Source: Flavobacteriales bacterium (GTDB taxonomy: Bacteria; Bacteroidota; Bacteroidia; Flavobacteriales; BACL11). From it: DNA of 33,681 nt. Location of the stretch: the NCBI GenBank assembly GCA_012960835.1, contig DUAL01000030.1, forward strand, positions 11,270 to 44,950. The letters are read 5' to 3'. The notes under the pieces were generated by a model, which searched no databases, was not told where the DNA came from, and saw only the letters and a program-made list of their open reading frames with translations. Shown one piece after another: positions 1,626 to 28,751 of this stretch (its first letter is position 1; the number at the start of each line of letters is the position of its first letter). A program made the position numbers and the translations under genes.

Positions 1626-2459
1626 CTATTTCTTTGTGGCTTTTAGCATTCTATTCTTATCGTTTATATCTTTTTTTAACGCTATATCAACAAAACCTAT
1701 TTTTCGTAGCATTTCCAAAATTTCATTCCCGTATTTTTCATTAATTTCAAAATATAATTTACCCTTACAATTTAAGGATTTTGCTGCTAATTCCCCAATT
1801 TTTTTGTAAAATAATAAGGGATTATTATCCGCTACAAAAAGGGCTAAATTGGGTTCGTATTCTAAAACATTATCAAGCATCAATTCCTTTTCAGACTCCA
1901 AAACATAAGGAGGATTACTTACAATTACATCCACTTTTGGTAAAGTAGTTGTTTTTAAGAGATCTTGCCTAAAAAAGTTGATTTCTACTCCATTTATTTT
2001 TGCGTTTTCTTTAGCGACTACTAAAGCATCTTCTGATACATCAATTGCAGAAATTATAGCATTCGTATTTTTAGCAAGTACTATAGGAATACAGCCACTA
2101 CCTGTTCCTATATCTAGTGCAGAAGAAAATTCTTTTTTTAATATCCAATCTACCAATTCTTCCGTTTCTGGTCTTGGAATTAAAGTATGCTCATTTACTA
2201 TGAATTTTAATCCGTAAAACTCTGTTTCACCTAAGATGTATTGTACTGGTTTATTTGTTTTTAAAGCTGCAATAATCTGCTTAAATCTATCCGATAATGA
2301 AGTAGTAATTTGCTTCTCTGCATGAATGATACAATCCGAACGATTATATTCCAAACAATGCTCAATACTAATATATGCCCAAGAAATAATTTCACGCTCA
2401 TCAGCAATGCCACTCAGTTGCTTAATAAAATACGGTATTATATTGCTGACTTTTTCCAC
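1626..2459 (-). CDS. prmC: Peptide chain release factor N5-glutamine methyltransferase PrmC
   Basis: PrmC methylates the glutamine of the GGQ motif in release factors RF1 and RF2, using S-adenosylmethionine. The 277-residue length is normal. A helical N-terminal domain is followed by LIPRPETE (about residues 93-100), the SAM-binding ALDIGTGSGC (114-123), and the substrate-glutamine motif NPPY (182-185) within VSNPPYVLESE. The start codon is GTG. Its choice is supported by a TACATTTG box exactly 4 nt upstream, which would place the transcription start at the start codon itself. It diverges from ribD across a 34-nt gap. Confidence 0.96.
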   Translation of the reverse strand: MEKVSNIIPYFIKQLSGIADEREIISWAYISIEHCLEYNRSDCIIHAEKQITTSLSDRFKQIIAALKTNKPVQYILGETEFYGLKFIVNEHTLIPRPETEELVDWILKKEFSSALDIGTGSGCIPIVLAKNTNAIISAIDVSEDALVVAKENAKINGVEINFFRQDLLKTTTLPKVDVIVSNPPYVLESEKELMLDNVLEYEPNLALFVADNNPLLFYKKIGELAAKSLNCKGKLYFEINEKYGNEILEMLRKIGFVDIALKKDINDKNRMLKATKK

Positions 2460-2493: not shown

Positions 2494-3972
2494 ATGCAAA
2501 ATGGGGAGATTTTCATGAAAAGATGTATTGAGTTGGCCAACAAAGCAATGGGCTATGCATCTCCAAACCCTATGGTGGGTTCAGTTATTGTTTATGAAGG
2601 TAAAATAATTGGAGAAGGCTATCATGAAAACTATGGAAAATCACATGCTGAAGTGAATGCAATTGCTAGTGTAAAAGACAAAAGTTTACTTCCTAAATCT
2701 ACCCTTTATGTCAATTTAGAACCATGTGCTCATTTCGGAAAAACACCTCCCTGTTCCGACCTAATAATAGAACATAAAATACCAAAAGTTGTTATCGGAT
2801 GTGTCGACTCTTTTTCTGAGGTTGCTGGAAAAGGGATAGCAAAAATGGAAAATGCAGGGATTGAGGTTATTGTTGGCGTTCTAGAAAAAGAAAGCAGAGC
2901 ATTAAACAAACGATTCTTTACTTTTCATGAAAAGGAAAGACCCTACATCATATTGAAATGGGCGGAAAGCAATGATGGATTTATTGCTCCTAAAAATCAA
3001 ACAGCACCTTTTTGGATGACTTCTAGTGAATCAAAGAAATTAGTGCACCAATGGAGAGCAGAAGAAGACGCTATTTTAGTAGGAAGAATTACTGCTAAAA
3101 AGGACAATCCTTCCCTAACAGTTAGAGAAGTTGAAGGAAAAAACCCTGTAAGAATTGTAATAGACAAAGATTTAAAACTTTCTGATGAATTGAATCTGTT
3201 TGATAGTGATTCAAAAACAATTGTTTTTAATGCAATAAAAACAGAAGAAATTGACTCAAATTATTTTATAAAAATTCCCCTTAACAATTTGATTGAAAAT
3301 ATATTAAGTGAATTATATAAACAAAACATTCAGTCAATAATTATTGAAGGAGGAACTATTACTTTACAGTCCTTTATTGATAAAAATATCTGGGATGAAG
3401 CTAGAATTTTTGCAACCAACAAAACATTAGTTGAAGGAGTAAAAGCACCCACTATTGATGGAGAAATTATTTCAGAAGAAGAAATTGAAGGGGATAAACT
3501 TACTTATTACAAATCAATTTCTTCAGTAGAAAAAATTTGGAAAGACTTTATTTCTGAAAATCATCAATACTATAAACTTAAAACTCCCGAATCATTCTTC
3601 TTTTGTGATAATAAGAAAGATGCAGATGAGTGTGCTGAATTGGTTTTAAACAGAATAAAACAAGCTACTGCAGGATCATTATGGTCCTATAAAAAACACA
3701 ATACTGATTTTCCCAAAAAAGGAGATTTATTTATTATAACAGATTGGAAGGGAAATGCAAAAGCAATTATAAAAACTACAAATATAAAGCAAATTCCCTT
3801 TAATCAGATTACTCCTGAATTTGCAAAAACAGAAGGGGAAGGAGATAAATCCCTTTCTTATTGGAAAAAAGTCCATTGGGATTTTTTTTCGAGAGAAATG
3901 GAAGAATATGGAGAAAAACCAAGTGAAGATATGATAATCATATGTGAATACTTTAAAATCTTATATGTATAA
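2494..3972 (+). CDS. ribD: RibD deaminase/reductase fused to a C-terminal ASCH domain
   Basis: RibD carries out two early riboflavin steps: deamination of the diaminopyrimidine, then NADPH-dependent reduction of the ribose. Residues 1-145 are the deaminase, with zinc ligands in HAEVNA (H51) and EPCAHFGKTPPC (C78, C87). Residues about 150-338 are the reductase, with RAEEDAILVG and IIIEGG. A normal RibD would stop after EGDKLTYYK at about residue 340. Here the frame continues without a linker into residues 344-492, a complete ASCH domain: SSVEKIWKDF, ADECAELVL, KQATAGSLWSY, EFAKTEGEGDKSL, and the ending MIIICEYFKILYV. K389, T392 and a glutamate in the EGEG segment could match the Lys/Thr/Glu triad described for ASCH amidohydrolases of the E. 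coli YqfB type; this is inference. The gene leads an overlapping operon with eamA and yigZ. Confidence 0.93.
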   Translation: MQNGEIFMKRCIELANKAMGYASPNPMVGSVIVYEGKIIGEGYHENYGKSHAEVNAIASVKDKSLLPKSTLYVNLEPCAHFGKTPPCSDLIIEHKIPKVVIGCVDSFSEVAGKGIAKMENAGIEVIVGVLEKESRALNKRFFTFHEKERPYIILKWAESNDGFIAPKNQTAPFWMTSSESKKLVHQWRAEEDAILVGRITAKKDNPSLTVREVEGKNPVRIVIDKDLKLSDELNLFDSDSKTIVFNAIKTEEIDSNYFIKIPLNNLIENILSELYKQNIQSIIIEGGTITLQSFIDKNIWDEARIFATNKTLVEGVKAPTIDGEIISEEEIEGDKLTYYKSISSVEKIWKDFISENHQYYKLKTPESFFFCDNKKDADECAELVLNRIKQATAGSLWSYKKHNTDFPKKGDLFIITDWKGNAKAIIKTTNIKQIPFNQITPEFAKTEGEGDKSLSYWKKVHWDFFSREMEEYGEKPSEDMIIICEYFKILYV

Positions 3973-4828
3973 CATAATCTACACCATACTCCTATTCAAC
4001 ATTTTAATAATTACATTTAAAATGTTCAAAAAATACAAAGTTGATAATTTACAAGCGTTAATTGTAAACTACTTAACTGCAGCAATATGTTCTTACTTCT
4101 TTTTAGAACAAGATTTTTCATTAAATTATGTAGTAAATTCTGAATGGTTATATCATGCAATGATTATTGGAACACTATTTATTGTTGTATTTAATTTTTA
4201 CGCTTTTGGAACCCAAAAAGTAGGAATAGCAGTTACGACAGTAGCAAATAAAATGTCCTTAATTATTCCAGTTTGTGCAGCACTTATTTTATATCCAGAA
4301 GAAAACACCTTTGATGCATTAAAAGGAGTTGCATTTTTCTTAGCTCTTGCCGGTATTTATTTATCCTCAACAAGAGGAGGTAAACTAAGTTTTGATAAAA
4401 AATATTTATGGTTAATTATATTGGTATTTGTTGGACAGGGAATTTCTGATTCTATATTTAATGATTTCGCGCAACAATTTCCTGATGAAGGAGGGTATTT
4501 ATTCTTTATGGTATTGTTTTTTATGGCAAGTATTAGTGGAATACTAATATTATCGGCTAAATCTGTTAGAAGCAAAAATCCACTTCAGATAAGGAGTCTG
4601 TTTTGGGGAATCGTTTTTGGAGTCCCTAATTTCTTTTCTTTAGTATTTTTTCTGAAAGCACTTGGAGATCCTAAACTTACAAGTTCAATAGTATTTCCAT
4701 TAGTAAGTATGGGGGTTGTTGTTAGTTCCTCAGTAATTGGATTATTTTTATTTAAAGAAAATTTAACTAGAAATAATTGGATTGGAATTATTCTATCTAT
4801 CTGTGCAATTTACATTTTTACTTATTAA
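3965..4828 (+). CDS. EamA-family (DMT superfamily) transporter
   Basis: This is an integral membrane protein with about ten hydrophobic segments and internal two-fold character, as in EamA/RhaT-like transporters. Typical pieces are the central GTKVGIAVTT-like region (FGTQKVGIAVTTVANKMS) and a second half ending SMGVVVSSSVIG...LFKENLTRNNWIGIILS. The track starts at a GTG at 3944. I prefer the ATG at 3965, seven codons later, giving 287 residues that begin directly with the first membrane helix and overlap the end of ribD by 8 nt. The substrate cannot be read from the sequence. Its position behind ribD makes a flavin-related metabolite one speculative option. Confidence 0.85.
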   Translation: MYNIIYTILLFNILIITFKMFKKYKVDNLQALIVNYLTAAICSYFFLEQDFSLNYVVNSEWLYHAMIIGTLFIVVFNFYAFGTQKVGIAVTTVANKMSLIIPVCAALILYPEENTFDALKGVAFFLALAGIYLSSTRGGKLSFDKKYLWLIILVFVGQGISDSIFNDFAQQFPDEGGYLFFMVLFFMASISGILILSAKSVRSKNPLQIRSLFWGIVFGVPNFFSLVFFLKALGDPKLTSSIVFPLVSMGVVVSSSVIGLFLFKENLTRNNWIGIILSICAIYIFTY

Positions 4829-5439
4829 TGTTTAACGATACTTACAAAGAGATAAAATCCCATACCACAGGAATTTACAAAGAGAAGGGAAGTAAATTTA
4901 TCGCTTACTCCTATCCTGTTTATTCTGAACAAGATGTAAAAGATAAACTTGAAGAAGTAAGGAAATTAGAACATTCTGCTCGTCATCATTGTTATGCCTA
5001 CATTCTTAACCCTGACAAATCAGCACAAAGAGCCAATGATGATGGAGAGCCCTCCTCTACTGCAGGAAAACCCATTTTAGGACAAATACTATCCAACAAC
5101 TTAACCAATATACTCATAGTAGTAGTTCGTTATTTTGGAGGAGTAAAACTAGGTGTTCCAGGATTAATACGATCCTACAAAACAGCAGCTGCAGCTGCAA
5201 TAGCTAATGCTACTATCCTTTCAAAAAAAATAAAAGAACATTATGAGGTGAGTTTCAAATATCCACAAATGAATGATGTAATGCGATTGGTGAAAGAATA
5301 TGATTTAGAAGTTGTAAATACTGACTTCCAAATAGATTGTAAACTTATATTTGCAGCTCCAAAAAGTAAAGCAAATGATATTGTGGATACTTTTAAGAAA
5401 AACCATGAATTAAGTATCAAGTATGTAAAAACTATCTGA
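4828..5439 (+). CDS. yigZ: YigZ/IMPACT family protein
   Basis: This is a member of the UPF0029/IMPACT family, related to E. coli YigZ and the eukaryotic IMPACT translation regulator. The diagnostic run is present: ARHHCYAYIL, NDDGEPSSTAGKPIL, then VVVRYFGGVKLGVPGLIRSY. A C-terminal ferredoxin-like (DUF1949) half follows. The track begins at 4777 inside eamA. The real start is almost certainly the ATG at 4828 (MFNDTYKEI), which shares one base with the eamA stop (TAATG) and gives 203 residues. The function in bacteria is unclear; nucleotide or ribosome-linked roles have been proposed for the family. It ends 5 nt from the convergent btuG-like gene, and I see no terminator there. Confidence 0.92.
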   Translation: MFNDTYKEIKSHTTGIYKEKGSKFIAYSYPVYSEQDVKDKLEEVRKLEHSARHHCYAYILNPDKSAQRANDDGEPSSTAGKPILGQILSNNLTNILIVVVRYFGGVKLGVPGLIRSYKTAAAAAIANATILSKKIKEHYEVSFKYPQMNDVMRLVKEYDLEVVNTDFQIDCKLIFAAPKSKANDIVDTFKKNHELSIKYVKTI

Positions 5440-16234: not shown

Positions 16235-19200
16235 TTAATGCTTTTTCTCCATTTCTTTTACAAAACGATCAACTGATTGCTGAGGTGCTATCTGATAACG
16301 AAATGCTGGAATACCTCCTTTATGAGGCGCTTTTCGTTTTCCTTCTTTTATTTCTTGAATGGCTTCATTAAATTCTAAATTGGATGATCGTGCTCGCATC
16401 ACTCCAGATTTATAATTAAAGTAATAGCTTTCGTAAGATTCTGTTACTAAATAGATAGTAAGAATATCATTATTTCTGCCTTTTTTAATTTTGATGTAAC
16501 TATCCTTTAGAAAGCTATTTAATTGATAGTCAACCATACTTCCTAATCCAATACTTCCAATAGAATAATACGCTTTTTCCTTTCCGTCCCATCTCAGCTC
16601 TAAGTCGGTAAAGCTCATGGTATGATTTAGGGCATCAGGGAATTCAACAAATTCTGCTCTAGTTTCCAACTCCAAGAGCAACATCTCTGCCTCTTCCTTT
16701 CCAACAATTCTTCCTAAAGTTTTTCCGTAAAATTCACTTTCAAATTCATAATTCTCAATTCCTGGTGACAGAAATATATCTTCTGCCATCACCTTTAAAG
16801 CTTTCTCAGAAAAGAAAAAATCTAATAGTAAAAACAGACGCATCTGCTCTTTATCCGCTAAAATATTATGTTCTACAAAACCTGCTGTTTCTACCTTAAT
16901 TCTTCCTAAAAAAATACCTAAATCCATAAGTCCATCTCCCTTTGTTTTGCACTGCTTATCGTAAAGGCGAAAAATATTAGAAAGCGTATCGTATCCGCTA
17001 ACTACAAATGCTGATTCATTTTTGTCATAATACAGAAAATAAGAAGCAGAAAGTAAATCAATATCCATACTTCTATTTTTACGATTTAAAAATGTAGAAT
17101 AGACATTGGAGGAATCTGCCCCCATTATTAGCCCAGTGGTTAATCGCTCATCATCATCATTTACAACTACTGAATCCAATTCAAGCGTGATATTATCTGG
17201 GGCAATTTCTGAAGTGAATCGCACCCACTCAATTGGAATAAAAGAGCACTGATGATCCATCTTGAAATAACCATCAAAAGTCAAGTATTTATCATCTGCT
17301 GATAAATTCACTACTCCTTTAAAACTAAATTTAGCACCTAACTTAAATGGCTTCTCCCCTTCAACCGAACCACTTGCAATCGTCATTTTATCGTCATTAA
17401 CACTAATTTTTTGGAACAAAATAGTTTGCTCTTTATTTAGTTCGTCCTTGTAGGTGTAATCGCCAGAACCAGTATAATTGTTTTTACCCTTGATATTGAT
17501 ACTCGCCTTTTTGAAGGTATGGTATTCTGTTAGGTTATTGGTTAAAACTGTCGCATTCTCAAGAATTCGGATAAATGCTTTTTTCTCAACGATAACTTTA
17601 CCAGAATCAGGGAAAATAGTGGCATCTGCCACCTCAATTTTATCCACTCCTCTAGCATGAATCACATAATCTTTTAAGCTATAATTTGCTGTTTTTGCAA
17701 TAAAACTGAGGGAATCCTGTAATGGATGAGAAGATACAAATTCAGTTCCTAAGGAAGATTTGCTTGTTTCGCCCAACTCCAATAGTTGCTCTTTCATATA
17801 CCATTTCAGTTTATCGATATAACAGATGTATTGATTTTCCGGAAGTCGAACATAGGATTCTGATCCATTGGAATAGAACATCCCTATTTTCTCTTCTAAG
17901 TCGATATGAGTTCTTAAATTTTTAGACTCAAATGCAATGCCTTCCAAATCATCCGCATGCACTACTAAATCAGCAGTGTCGGCATTAAAAAATACGGTAT
18001 TATACATAAAGAAATTAGAAGTTACTTCTGCTTTATCTAATTTCATAATTCCATTTCCAGTCAATCCGGTTGGGCGTAATTCTATATCGCCATCCAATGT
18101 TACTTGTCCGTTATAAAAACTAAATTCACTTTGTTTTTTGTAAATATTCATTACATCATAATAGGGCTGATAATGTACATAAGTAGTGGTATTATTTGCT
18201 TCTGGAAATTCAATCCCCTCTCTTACAGCTAATAAGTTAAATTGCTGAGTGTGTAAGTTCGTGGAATCAGGGAAAAACAGAATATTATCAGCAATAGAAA
18301 CTGAGGTAAGATACTCCATTTTTCCACTTCCTTTTATTCCTTTATTACTTAACTGAATCTCATTAAAATATTTTCCTTTCCCACCATAAATTGGAAACCC
18401 ATCTTTAGGAGTGTTTCTTTTAAAGCCGAGTGAATAATCCTTTTGTAAGCGCAAAGTATCATCAAAAACAGGGAATATTCCTGCCGATTTAAAAGTTCCT
18501 GCAAACCTTAATCCTTTTCCTGTAAAGTTTTCTAAACTATCAATCTCAAAGGGAAGCAAATGAAAGGAAACCCTATCCCTGTCATACACCCCATTGTAAA
18601 TACTTTTTCTATCGTAAAAAACATAAGAATCTTCATAGCTTCTAAAAATAGGATAGCCCGGAAAACTATCTTTTCTCAATCCCGATTTATTAGTAGGATG
18701 ATCAATTTGCAAATCGCCAGTAACCGCCTCAATTACCGTCTTAATTTTTGTAAGGATTTCATCTCCATACATATCTCTTCTAATTGGTTCTAGTGGAACA
18801 GAAAGCTGCACAGAATCAATTTTGTTTAAATCTACCCAAAAGCTATCGTAATGAAAATAGAAGTCTTTTCCGAAAAGATTGAACCTACCATTTCCAGCAG
18901 AAATTTGCCCAGAGAAAATAAAATCTCTGTTTTTCTTTATTACTATTCTACCATCTGTTGGATACATATAAACTCTTTGGGAATCGGAAAGCGTAATTTC
19001 AGGAACCCCTAAAATATTCAAATCTTTGGTTTTGATATTCAGGGCAGAATTAATTTGCATTTTCATTGCCCCAGAAGTGCTTTGAACTTGCGATTTGAAA
19101 CTAATCACATCATAATCCCCTTTCCCTGACTTTGCTTTTAAGTAGTTGTGAAGTTTTCCTAGTACTTTTATTCTCTGCTCACCATAGTCATAATACACAA

Positions 19201-20686
19201 ATCCTTTATTGGAAAGATTAGTAAGATAATGTTGAATTTGAGAAAGTGTATAGCCAGCATATCTAGCAAAATCTTCCACAAAAAACAACTCTTCCCCTTT
19301 ATCTTTCATGTAATTTCTTATTAAAATTAAAGGATGAATTTTATCCATTCCGTGAAGTTGCTGATATTTTGCTTCCAAATAATTATTTGTAGATTCAAAA
19401 TTTGCATCTGAAATAGATGAGCCAGGCAAAGAGCCAAAGAATATCATGTCTTTATCAATACTCCATTCCAAAAGTTCACAATCCATTGTTATCTGATGGT
19501 AGGTATTAATAAGCGGACTTTCTGAAACGCCATTTCGTTTTCTGTAAAGCTCTAATTTTCTTTTGGAATCGGAATACTTGAATTGCAATGCAGAATGGTA
19601 AATAGAATCGGTATCAAAAAAAACTTTTACAGCAGCCAATTGGGAAGAAATTCTATCGTTTCCAATACTAAAACGATTGGCATTTGCAATAATAATGGGC
19701 TTTCCATTTCTTTTTAATATGATACGTGCCTCAGCATAATCGCCACCATCCGCAATAAACTCCTTCCCTTTAAGAATGTAGCCACCTTTATAATCTACAT
19801 CAGGGAAAATTTCGCTAAGCAGCACATTTTTATCCTTAGATTTAAAGTAAGGATATGCCTTTTTTTTATCGTAACCACCAACATCTATTTTATGTTGTAG
19901 CGTTCCAATTATCGGTCTTTTAAAGAGATACTTATTATAAAACAAAACAGAATCTGCATGTATCTGGTCTTTTTTAAGGTCGATTTTAAAGTGAGCTAAT
20001 TGTGCATAAACTGAATCTGTATGCAAACCCACCTTTTGCCAATCAATCATACCTCCTTTTCCTTCCCATTTGTAATTTATTGGCCAATACTTTCCTTTTG
20101 TATTATACACATAAATGGTGCTTCCTTTTGCTGAACAACTTAGAGTAAATTCTTTGTAAAAGGATAAAAATGGATGTCCTAATTCTACTTCAAAAGTATA
20201 ATCGGTAGATGGGCAATACCAACTTACAGCCCTAGAATTTCTTAGCATTCCAGAGGATAGAAAATCATCCGTAAATATAAAATACAGCATCAATCTTTTG
20301 GTAGTAGATTCTTCTAGCAGAATATCTACTATATTTAACCAATCATTGAATTTTGGGATTGCAGTTGGCTGATAAGCAAACTGATTGATGGCTTTTAGGA
20401 AATTGGTAAAATGAGGATTTGCCCTTAGCCGTTTTTCAAGCATTGTATTTGCAATTGCAATTATTTTCTTTGTGCTTTTTGTATCAAACTTTTCGGATTG
20501 AATATTTTCCTCAAACTGAGAAAAAACCCTTGATAAATCTTTGTTTTTTTTGGCGGAAATAAATACATCCATTTCCTCTAAAAAACCAGAAGTTTCCTCT
20601 GAAAATTTAGTAAGTTTCTTCTTATCTTGACTAAAACTGCTATTAAAGCAAAGTAAAAAACTTAAAAAAAGTAATAATTTTCTCAT
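16235..20686 (-). CDS. Giant exported protein of unknown function (1,483 residues)
   Basis: I do not recognise a named family. The track begins at 20794, but the ATG at 20686 starts a clean signal peptide (MRKLLLFLSFLLCFNSSFSQ) and is the better start. The first 150 residues are helical (FSEETSGFLEEMDVF...). Then come long stretches of short beta-strand repeats with recurring patterns such as KGIKGSGKMEYLTSVSIADN and TGLTGNGIMKLDKAEVTSN, which suggest a beta-helix, beta-taco or jelly-roll scaffold. Around residues 449-516 is a helix-rich insert that reads like a winged helix. There is no T9SS tail, lipobox or C-terminal membrane anchor. It sits between tpiA and plsY in one operon. An envelope role, perhaps in lipid or outer-membrane biogenesis, is only a guess from the export signal, fold style and plsY. 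Confidence 0.85.
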   Translation of the reverse strand: MRKLLLFLSFLLCFNSSFSQDKKKLTKFSEETSGFLEEMDVFISAKKNKDLSRVFSQFEENIQSEKFDTKSTKKIIAIANTMLEKRLRANPHFTNFLKAINQFAYQPTAIPKFNDWLNIVDILLEESTTKRLMLYFIFTDDFLSSGMLRNSRAVSWYCPSTDYTFEVELGHPFLSFYKEFTLSCSAKGSTIYVYNTKGKYWPINYKWEGKGGMIDWQKVGLHTDSVYAQLAHFKIDLKKDQIHADSVLFYNKYLFKRPIIGTLQHKIDVGGYDKKKAYPYFKSKDKNVLLSEIFPDVDYKGGYILKGKEFIADGGDYAEARIILKRNGKPIIIANANRFSIGNDRISSQLAAVKVFFDTDSIYHSALQFKYSDSKRKLELYRKRNGVSESPLINTYHQITMDCELLEWSIDKDMIFFGSLPGSSISDANFESTNNYLEAKYQQLHGMDKIHPLILIRNYMKDKGEELFFVEDFARYAGYTLSQIQHYLTNLSNKGFVYYDYGEQRIKVLGKLHNYLKAKSGKGDYDVISFKSQVQSTSGAMKMQINSALNIKTKDLNILGVPEITLSDSQRVYMYPTDGRIVIKKNRDFIFSGQISAGNGRFNLFGKDFYFHYDSFWVDLNKIDSVQLSVPLEPIRRDMYGDEILTKIKTVIEAVTGDLQIDHPTNKSGLRKDSFPGYPIFRSYEDSYVFYDRKSIYNGVYDRDRVSFHLLPFEIDSLENFTGKGLRFAGTFKSAGIFPVFDDTLRLQKDYSLGFKRNTPKDGFPIYGGKGKYFNEIQLSNKGIKGSGKMEYLTSVSIADNILFFPDSTNLHTQQFNLLAVREGIEFPEANNTTTYVHYQPYYDVMNIYKKQSEFSFYNGQVTLDGDIELRPTGLTGNGIMKLDKAEVTSNFFMYNTVFFNADTADLVVHADDLEGIAFESKNLRTHIDLEEKIGMFYSNGSESYVRLPENQYICYIDKLKWYMKEQLLELGETSKSSLGTEFVSSHPLQDSLSFIAKTANYSLKDYVIHARGVDKIEVADATIFPDSGKVIVEKKAFIRILENATVLTNNLTEYHTFKKASINIKGKNNYTGSGDYTYKDELNKEQTILFQKISVNDDKMTIASGSVEGEKPFKLGAKFSFKGVVNLSADDKYLTFDGYFKMDHQCSFIPIEWVRFTSEIAPDNITLELDSVVVNDDDERLTTGLIMGADSSNVYSTFLNRKNRSMDIDLLSASYFLYYDKNESAFVVSGYDTLSNIFRLYDKQCKTKGDGLMDLGIFLGRIKVETAGFVEHNILADKEQMRLFLLLDFFFSEKALKVMAEDIFLSPGIENYEFESEFYGKTLGRIVGKEEAEMLLLELETRAEFVEFPDALNHTMSFTDLELRWDGKEKAYYSIGSIGLGSMVDYQLNSFLKDSYIKIKKGRNNDILTIYLVTESYESYYFNYKSGVMRARSSNLEFNEAIQEIKEGKRKAPHKGGIPAFRYQIAPQQSVDRFVKEMEKKH

Positions 20687-20756
20687 TTTTGTAAGTGGAA
20701 TAATATCACTAAAAGGATTTTTTCTGATAGAGAAATATCCACTTGAATATAATTCA

Positions 20757-21512
20757 TTAAAATGAATGTATGATTGCCAAAAAATCATCTGCATTTAATG
20801 ATGCACCACCAATTAAACCGCCATCAATATCTTTTTGCGTGAAAAGGTCTTTTGCATTATTTGGATTGCAACTTCCCCCATACAAAATAGAGGTGTTTTC
20901 AGCAATTTCATTCCCAAACTTTTCGCTAATAATAGTCCGAATAAATCCGTGCATTTCTTGTGCTTGTTCGCTTGTTGCAGTTATACCTGTTCCGATTGCC
21001 CAAATTGGTTCATAAGCAATCACAATATTATTAAAATCAGCAACTGATAAATGGAACAAGCTCTCATTTATTTGTTGTTTTACCCAATCAAAATGAGTGC
21101 TTTCTTCTCTTTGATTTAACCTTTCCCCACAGCAAAAAATCACTTTCAAATTATTAGCAAGCGCCATATTTATTTTTTGTACTAAATCAGCATTTGTTTC
21201 TTTAAAAAATTCTCTTCTTTCAGAATGACCGATTATCACATAATCGCCATTGGAAGACTCTATCATTTCAGATGAAATTTCCCCAGTAAAAGCACCTTTT
21301 CCCTCTTTACTACAATTTTGTGCAGAAACTTTTACCCTTTCAAAATCACTACATAATTTTGCTATTTTATACAAATACAAAAAAGAGGGGGCAAACACAA
21401 CCTCTGTATTTTTGTCTTCTGGAAGTTTGCTTAAAACTGCTGAAACTAATTCCAAACTTTCCTCTCTTTTAAGGTTCATTTTCCAATTTCCTACGACAAT
21501 ATTTTTTCTCAT
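20757..21512 (-). CDS. tpiA: Triosephosphate isomerase
   Basis: TpiA interconverts dihydroxyacetone phosphate and glyceraldehyde-3-phosphate in glycolysis and gluconeogenesis. This 251-residue TIM barrel has all catalytic residues: NWKMN (K11), IGHSERR (H96) and AYEPIWAIGTG (E168, followed by the flexible loop). The phosphate-binding LYGGSCNPNNA and GLIGGASL are near the end. The start is 1 nt after the stop of the ABC permease gene, consistent with one operon. Its product links chemically to glycerol-3-phosphate, the substrate of plsY two genes downstream. Confidence 0.98.
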   Translation of the reverse strand: MRKNIVVGNWKMNLKREESLELVSAVLSKLPEDKNTEVVFAPSFLYLYKIAKLCSDFERVKVSAQNCSKEGKGAFTGEISSEMIESSNGDYVIIGHSERREFFKETNADLVQKINMALANNLKVIFCCGERLNQREESTHFDWVKQQINESLFHLSVADFNNIVIAYEPIWAIGTGITATSEQAQEMHGFIRTIISEKFGNEIAENTSILYGGSCNPNNAKDLFTQKDIDGGLIGGASLNADDFLAIIHSF

Positions 21513-27422: not shown

Positions 27423-28751
27423 TTATAAAATTATCCATTTATGATCAAAAGTACAATCCTTTAAGCTATTTCCTAATTTAATATAGGTTTTTTCTATTTT
27501 TTCTTCTAACCAATCATTTATTGTTTCTTGTTTCTTTTCTGATAATGTTACATTCCGAATTTTATCGTAATCCTCAGTTAAGTTAGCCGTATGTGCTATG
27601 GTTTTTTTTCTTAGTTTTATGAGTCGGTACGCTTTTCTCCCATCATCTGTTTGCATAATCATTGGTGCCGATATTTCATTTTCACTCATTTTTTCAATTA
27701 CAAAATACAAAGTTGGATCCAAATCTTTCATAATAAACATACTAGAACCAGAATTAGGATTTATGAGTAATCCCTCATTGTTTTTACTCTCATCATCCGA
27801 AAAATTCAATGCCGCTTTTTCAAAAGTTATTTTTCCATCAGAAATCTGCTTTGCAATATCCTCAATTTCCGATTTTAGCTCCATAAGTTGAGTGGAAGAA
27901 ACTTTTGGTTTTAAAAGAATATGTCGCACATTTATCTGCTCTCCCCTTCTTTCTATCAGTTGAATGATATGATAACCAAATTCACTTTTAATAATATCAG
28001 AAAGTTCATCTCCTTTTAGCTTATAAGCTGCCGCTTCAAATGCTGGAACCAAATCGCCCCTCCCTACAAAACCTAATTCTCCTCCATTTTTTGCAGAACC
28101 AGGATCGTCAGAATAAAGGGTAGCTAATACCTTAAAATCTTCTCCTTTTATTATCCTCTCTTTAAAAGTTTCTAATTTATTTTTTATCCTTTCTTTTTCC
28201 TCAACTGAAATTTCTGGTTTTAAAACTATTTGGGAAATTTCAACTTCTGCCTCAACCGTAGGAAGGCTGTCTTTTGCTAAATTGTTAAAATAGTTTTTTA
28301 CTTCTGAAGGAGTAACTTTCACTCCAGCAGTAATACCTCCTTGCATTCTTTGTGAAAGTAATTGATCGTTTATTAAATCTCGAAATTCTGATTTTATTTC
28401 AATAATAGATTTTCCATAAAACTCTTCTAATTTTTCTTTGCTTCCCACTTGTCCTACAAAATAACGGATTCTTTTTTCCAATTCACTCTCAATTTCTTGT
28501 TCCGATATTTCCAAGCTATCAATTTTTGCTTGGTTTAAAAGCAGTTTCTGATACAATAAATCTTCAATAATCCTGCATTTTATCTCGCCCCTATTTGTAT
28601 ACCCTTGCGCTAAATATTGTTGGTATTGGGTCTCAATATCAGAGGTGAGAATAATTTCATTTCCAATTATTGCTTCTACGCCATCAATCACTTTTTGGCA
28701 GTAGATTTTACTGCTAAAAAGCAAAAGTGCTATAAGGATATATTTTTTCAT
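27423..28751 (-). CDS. SurA-like periplasmic peptidyl-prolyl isomerase
   Basis: This 442-residue periplasmic chaperone/foldase has a signal peptide (MKKYILIALLLFSSKIYCQ) followed by a SurA N-terminal chaperone region (VIDGVEAIIGNEIILTSDIE, LLYQKLLLNQAKID). Two parvulin-type units follow. The first, around residues 168-270, is canonical (EISQIVLKPE, FKVLATLYSDDPGSAKNGGELGFVGRG, FGYHIIQL). The second (about 272-385) starts with NVRHILLKP and is more diverged. SurA assists folding of outer-membrane beta-barrels. It is the third of three consecutive PPIase-type genes and shares four bases with the preceding lipoprotein gene. Confidence 0.92.
   Translation of the reverse strand: MKKYILIALLLFSSKIYCQKVIDGVEAIIGNEIILTSDIETQYQQYLAQGYTNRGEIKCRIIEDLLYQKLLLNQAKIDSLEISEQEIESELEKRIRYFVGQVGSKEKLEEFYGKSIIEIKSEFRDLINDQLLSQRMQGGITAGVKVTPSEVKNYFNNLAKDSLPTVEAEVEISQIVLKPEISVEEKERIKNKLETFKERIIKGEDFKVLATLYSDDPGSAKNGGELGFVGRGDLVPAFEAAAYKLKGDELSDIIKSEFGYHIIQLIERRGEQINVRHILLKPKVSSTQLMELKSEIEDIAKQISDGKITFEKAALNFSDDESKNNEGLLINPNSGSSMFIMKDLDPTLYFVIEKMSENEISAPMIMQTDDGRKAYRLIKLRKKTIAHTANLTEDYDKIRNVTLSEKKQETINDWLEEKIEKTYIKLGNSLKDCTFDHKWIIL

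Follow-up and report, generated by a model that had tools for sequence, protein, structure and literature searches.

The window, i.e. the whole stretch of 33,681 nucleotides analysed from a Flavobacteriales genome (G000), encodes on its forward strand a protein of 492 amino acids (2494..3972, stop codon included) in which the riboflavin pathway enzyme RibD and an ASCH domain are confirmed to form one continuous chain. This RibD-ASCH architecture is real and rare and, as far as the literature searched shows, undescribed: no publication naming RibD together with ASCH was found in a search that leaves many journals outside its coverage, and a search on COG4405 returned nothing. The preliminary description of this DNA had likewise known of no such enzyme. 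We give roughly even chances to the reading that the protein is a genuine three-domain enzyme, in which RibD carries an ASCH domain that was gained once and spread by recombination, and whose YqfB-like small-molecule pocket serves an accessory clean-up.

Domain make-up and locus of the fused gene

An open-frame check of 2494-3972 (+) gave 492 uninterrupted codons, and Pfam matched dCMP_cyt_deam_1 (PF00383) at residues 2-103, RibD_C (PF01872) at residues 150-312 and ASCH (PF04266) at residues 378-490, all of them well over their cut-offs, the last with 79.9 bits against a gathering cut-off of 21.2. The NCBIfam model TIGR00326 for RibD was matched with 291.4 bits (curated cut-off 156.4) with both domains in order, so that a full deaminase and reductase indeed run into a complete ASCH domain in a single frame, as had been proposed. 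The deaminase domain (2494..2937, +) could be aligned with 2hxv and with 2b3z of B. subtilis, and is followed by the reductase domain with its C-terminal tail (2941..3519, +). Among solved structures, RibD 2hxv came closest to the first part of the fusion, and the ASCH proteins 3s9x and 1t62 came closest to its last part. Zinc motifs of the RibD part were found as HAE at residues 51-53 and as PCxxxxxxxxC with C78 and C87, and all positions conserved in unfused relatives were retained (115/115). The fused ribD is the sole RibD copy in G000, where RibH and RibB are both present. Given this full conservation, the N-terminal two thirds would act as the organism's only RibD and carry out the normal deaminase and reductase steps. 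The protein resembles RibD/RibG (TIGR00326; 2hxv, 2b3z) in its two domains, its conserved positions and the gene order of the family; unlike the unfused RibD proteins of the family genomes examined, which end at approximately 342 residues within the same gene order, it continues for a further 150 residues of ASCH.

The junction (3493..3534, +) joins the RibD tail GDKLTYYKS to the N-terminal ASCH helix SSVEKIW. Across KLTYYKS/ISSVEKIW neither an in-frame stop nor an ATG was present, as previously noted, and GTG and TTG were lacking as well. The RibD part stops at about residue 342, the end point of unfused relatives, and the ASCH part starts where stand-alone ASCH proteins start, just after their methionine; since both ends match those of the separate proteins, the joint contains no linker. 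This holds at the level of the sequence, and in the predicted full-length model, in which the ASCH part is of low confidence (41-80), a helix begins at 344 after a strand spanning 334-340. The ASCH domain had been given as 149 residues; it is intact, but its extent has to be corrected to residues ~343-492 (3520..3969, +), the N-terminal helix included.

The order of genes at the locus was prmC, ribD-ASCH, eamA and yigZ, with prmC (release factor glutamine methyltransferase; 1626..2459, -; Pfam/NCBIfam) as the divergent neighbour. The EamA-family transporter gene (3965..4828, +; Pfam EamA) starts, at its ATG, 8 bases before the fused gene ends, an overlap also present in relatives, and a YigZ/IMPACT-family gene (4777..5439, +; Pfam) comes next in the conserved order. 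Elsewhere in the window, a frame of 1519 residues (16235-20794, -) gave no Pfam match.

Recurrence and exchange of the fused domain

When the RibD-ASCH architecture was sought in related genomes, as the preliminary description had suggested, the identical in-frame joint was found in three MAG species from two genera and three assemblies, all within one Flavobacteriales family. The fused relatives of G000 are G034 (NIOZ-UU109; L003/L115) and G456 (L004/L108), with ASCH identities of 86 and 72%, and the three fused ASCH domains formed one clade among 29 relatives (98/98). ASCH was found in 3/52 genomes of the family and was fused in all three. It had also been considered that close relatives might carry two separate genes, joined here by an indel; this origin was ruled out, as 49/52 family genomes were without detectable ASCH and the fusion recurs. 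In samples of approximately 400 genomes each from the order and the phylum, 7% carried ASCH, and no further frame was long enough for RibD and an ASCH domain of the YhfF type; frames of 747-763 aa in the phylum genomes G062, G067, G106 and G114 matched the ASCH model in part only. When 84,980 species genomes were scanned by a method that detects close relatives only, 31 loci were obtained, two of which were the fused relatives, the others not being RibD fusions. A viral source was rejected, since a pattern scan of viral contigs, sensitive to close relatives only, revealed no encoded relative.

In the ASCH comparisons dN was well under dS (0.06/0.25 and 0.17/0.82), and a SurA-like protein at 27423-28748 of the window contig was 96% identical to its counterpart in G001 of the same genus, a neighbour by which the contig is judged to belong to its genus. 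An assembly or binning artefact or a frame error might be suspected because all three cases are MAGs and a contig break lies inside ribD of G034, but its probability is negligible and it was ruled out by the recurrence of the joint in three species and assemblies at 72-86% ASCH identity, by purifying selection on the fusion and by the placement of the contig.

Immediately downstream of the stop codon, the window and its unfused close relatives have the bases TAACATAATCTACACC... in common, and the ASCH domain was therefore inserted exactly at the RibD tail, leaving the eamA overlap intact. G034 and the unfused G463, which are near sisters at this locus, were 94.0% identical in the DNA of prmC, 94.7% in the RibD N-terminus, 95.8% in eamA and 92.9% in yigZ. 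Along RibD, their identity stayed at 97% as far as codon 313 and was only 72% over codons 314-336, the drop spanning the final ~28 RibD codons; directly after the stop it was 96% again. The contrast between these two genomes may reflect a recent gain in G034 or a recent loss in G463. Between G000 and G034, which belong to different genera, the ASCH DNA was 91.3% identical (dS 0.25) and the flanks only 78.7% (dS 0.6-1.15; Fisher p 2e-11). G456 and the unfused G001 were 93% identical in eamA, 78% in prmC and 80% in yigZ. Locally, the fusion is a presence/absence polymorphism between near sister species. The collapse of identity in the RibD tail, together with ASCH domains more alike than their flanks, thus argues for an exchangeable 3' cassette; on these DNA comparisons, the final RibD codons and ASCH are shown to be swapped between species as a short unit, evidently by homologous recombination. 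The ASCH domain would have joined the 3' end of ribD in a single event, lacking a start codon of its own, and would afterwards have been passed on along with the last RibD codons.

The ribD-eamA-yigZ locus is a recombination-prone mosaic in the family, as seen from the window and from loci L110, L113 and L117. In G012, G460 and G465, eamA was absent from its place between ribD and yigZ, and distant eamA substitutes were present in G002 and G035. The RibD proteins of G023, G030 and G461 (L120, L121 and L111) had the C-terminus FKILYV, whose DNA agreed with the end of the window fusion in 17-18/18 bases; other unfused genomes agreed in at most 10/18. Such ends are possibly the scar of a lost ASCH domain. 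A chance likeness is also plausible, since these RibD proteins are one codon shorter and that of G009 ends in LKILYND.

The ASCH domain and its putative active site

The AlphaFold2 model of the ASCH part, computed from 29 aligned sequences, had a pLDDT of 94.6, and in Foldseek it matched 3s9x from Lactobacillus crispatus (TM 0.89) and 1t62, E. faecalis EF3133 (TM 0.84). The match to both covered the whole domain at ~31% identity, and the motif EGEGD.(S/T)L..W, of the EGEGDxSLxxW type common to these proteins, was present. The DUF984 label comes from the title of the 1t62 entry, and the subfamily is also called YhfF. The members encountered here stand alone or join other partners, and a RibD partner was limited to the three genomes. 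Nearly every position conserved in stand-alone ASCH proteins was retained in the fusion. The fused domain is probably functional, judging from the invariant family positions K389, A391, P407, A444, L454, W457, H461 and M480, which were kept in all three fusions. No tested activity was found in the literature for the YhfF/DUF984 subfamily.

The N4-acetylcytidine amidohydrolase YqfB (9kyf-9kyh) has the fold in common with the ASCH model (TM 0.55 by query and 0.83 by target length), the fused domain being about 50 residues longer. The K389/T392/Glu pattern noted earlier could be recovered: in a profile alignment, which is a weak match (hhalign probability 3%, E 0.013), K389 and T392 of the K389-Q-A-T392 motif (3658..3669, +) fall on Lys21 and Thr24 of YqfB, and E447 of the E447-G-E-G-D motif (3832..3846, +) falls on Glu74, the YqfB residue letters having been verified against 1te7. 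The proposed parallel with YqfB therefore stands for the fold and these three residues, but not for Arg26, whose position is occupied by G394 two residues after T392, or for His70, which is replaced by F443. Arginine was found at the Arg26 position in 0/29 aligned family members. YqfB removes acyl groups from N4-acylcytosines, and loses its activity in the K21A, T24A and R26A mutants (PMC6972931). As the Arg26 equivalent is missing, the ASCH part may at best work like YqfB with an altered site, and is not assignable as a YqfB-type enzyme.

Possible roles of the fusion

In the three-domain reading, the ASCH domain would most likely form a YqfB-like pocket in which an acyl- or formyl-amide carried by a pyrimidine is bound or hydrolysed, and tethering of the domain to RibD may provide an accessory clean-up of nucleosides generally or of modified RibD intermediates. 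The fusion is not needed for RibD itself, since it occurs in 3/52 genomes only and is absent in near sisters.

Nearly as likely is a passenger role, because the link to riboflavin is plausible yet unsupported by the neighbourhoods of stand-alone relatives; the ASCH domain would then do its own cytoplasmic job of the YhfF type, unrelated to riboflavin, and ribD would lend it a promoter and a ribosome binding site. No riboflavin gene was recognised beside the stand-alone ASCH genes of Maribacter and its kin, whose neighbours, named by eye, were sugar isomerase-like, Gfo/Idh-like, transporter-like and GMC-oxidoreductase-like. These lay mostly on the opposite strand, and guilt by association was set aside as uninformative here. 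The occurrence of the same ASCH family on the unrelated partners VF530, GNAT and a lipoprotein-like protein with Big_14, the rarity of the fused gene and its variable presence in near sister species are consistent with a passenger; the persistence in three species of an exact joint with no linker would, however, also be expected from functional coupling, and a separate co-transcribed gene would serve a passenger as well.

A more specific form of the three-domain reading, which we regard as unlikely, is metabolite damage control, in which the ASCH domain would deacylate or deformylate modified diaminopyrimidine intermediates of RibD. The fold and K/T/E pattern of the N4-acylcytosine-deacylating YqfB (PMC6972931) are in line with it, and the intermediate between the two RibD steps has been described as highly reactive (PMC4921024). 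A precedent in the same pathway is the N-glycosidase COG3236, which removes reactive intermediates and is fused to riboflavin enzymes, as RibA-COG3236 in Vibrio and in plant fusions (PMC5312566, PMC4921024). There too a domain of separate origin has been added to a riboflavin pathway enzyme, but COG3236 is unrelated to ASCH and its activity has been demonstrated, whereas that of the ASCH domain here is predicted. The ASCH motif, on the other hand, lacks the Arg26 equivalent. Moreover, with GTP cyclohydrolase II, no formylated intermediate is known to require removal. Somewhat more speculative still is the proposal that the domain represents a catalytically new type of amide hydrolase, without Arg26, repairing acylated or formylated aminopyrimidine intermediates, and that the C-terminal cassette of ribD is an accessory trait shared between species.

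An RNA-binding regulator, with the PUA-like ASCH domain binding RNA such as its own leader and thereby controlling riboflavin synthesis, is improbable. PUA and ASCH domains frequently bind RNA, and the ASCH protein ZmASCH (5guq) is a ribonuclease (PMC5615036) with a basic RNA-binding cleft containing Tyr47, Lys53 and Ser128. It belongs to the same superfamily but is distant: the ASCH model matched it with a TM of 0.45-0.49 at 9% identity and is nearer in fold to YqfB, and proteins of the YqfB type showed no binding to nucleic acid (PMC9599836). The fused domain is near neutral in charge and its family mostly neutral to acidic, and some relatives have lipoprotein-like N-termini, unexpected for RNA binders, so that the RNA binding put forward in the preliminary description finds little support.

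Fusions to vitamin-pathway enzymes have earlier revealed the functions of unknown domains, COG3236 among others (PMC4921024). RibD-ASCH offers a concrete biochemical lead for the uncharacterised YhfF/DUF984 ASCH family, and pairs of near sisters that differ in the presence of the domain provide a natural comparison. The fusion is, in addition, a clear example of a single-copy housekeeping enzyme gaining or losing a domain through short-tract recombination.

Other fusions of the ASCH family could also be observed. In a Vicingaceae genome (L006:4761-5468), Pfam identified a VF530 DNA-binding domain followed by an ASCH domain of the same subfamily, and at L067:707-1726 (-) ASCH is joined to a GNAT acetyltransferase. 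ASCH proteins with lipoprotein-like N-termini (L-x-x-C) were found at L092, L093, L007 and L125; one such protein has a C-terminal Big_14 domain, and those at L092, L093 and L125 are without the usual EGEGD motif. By these N-termini, they apparently represent an exported branch in Flavobacteriaceae, an odd location for a supposed RNA-binding fold.
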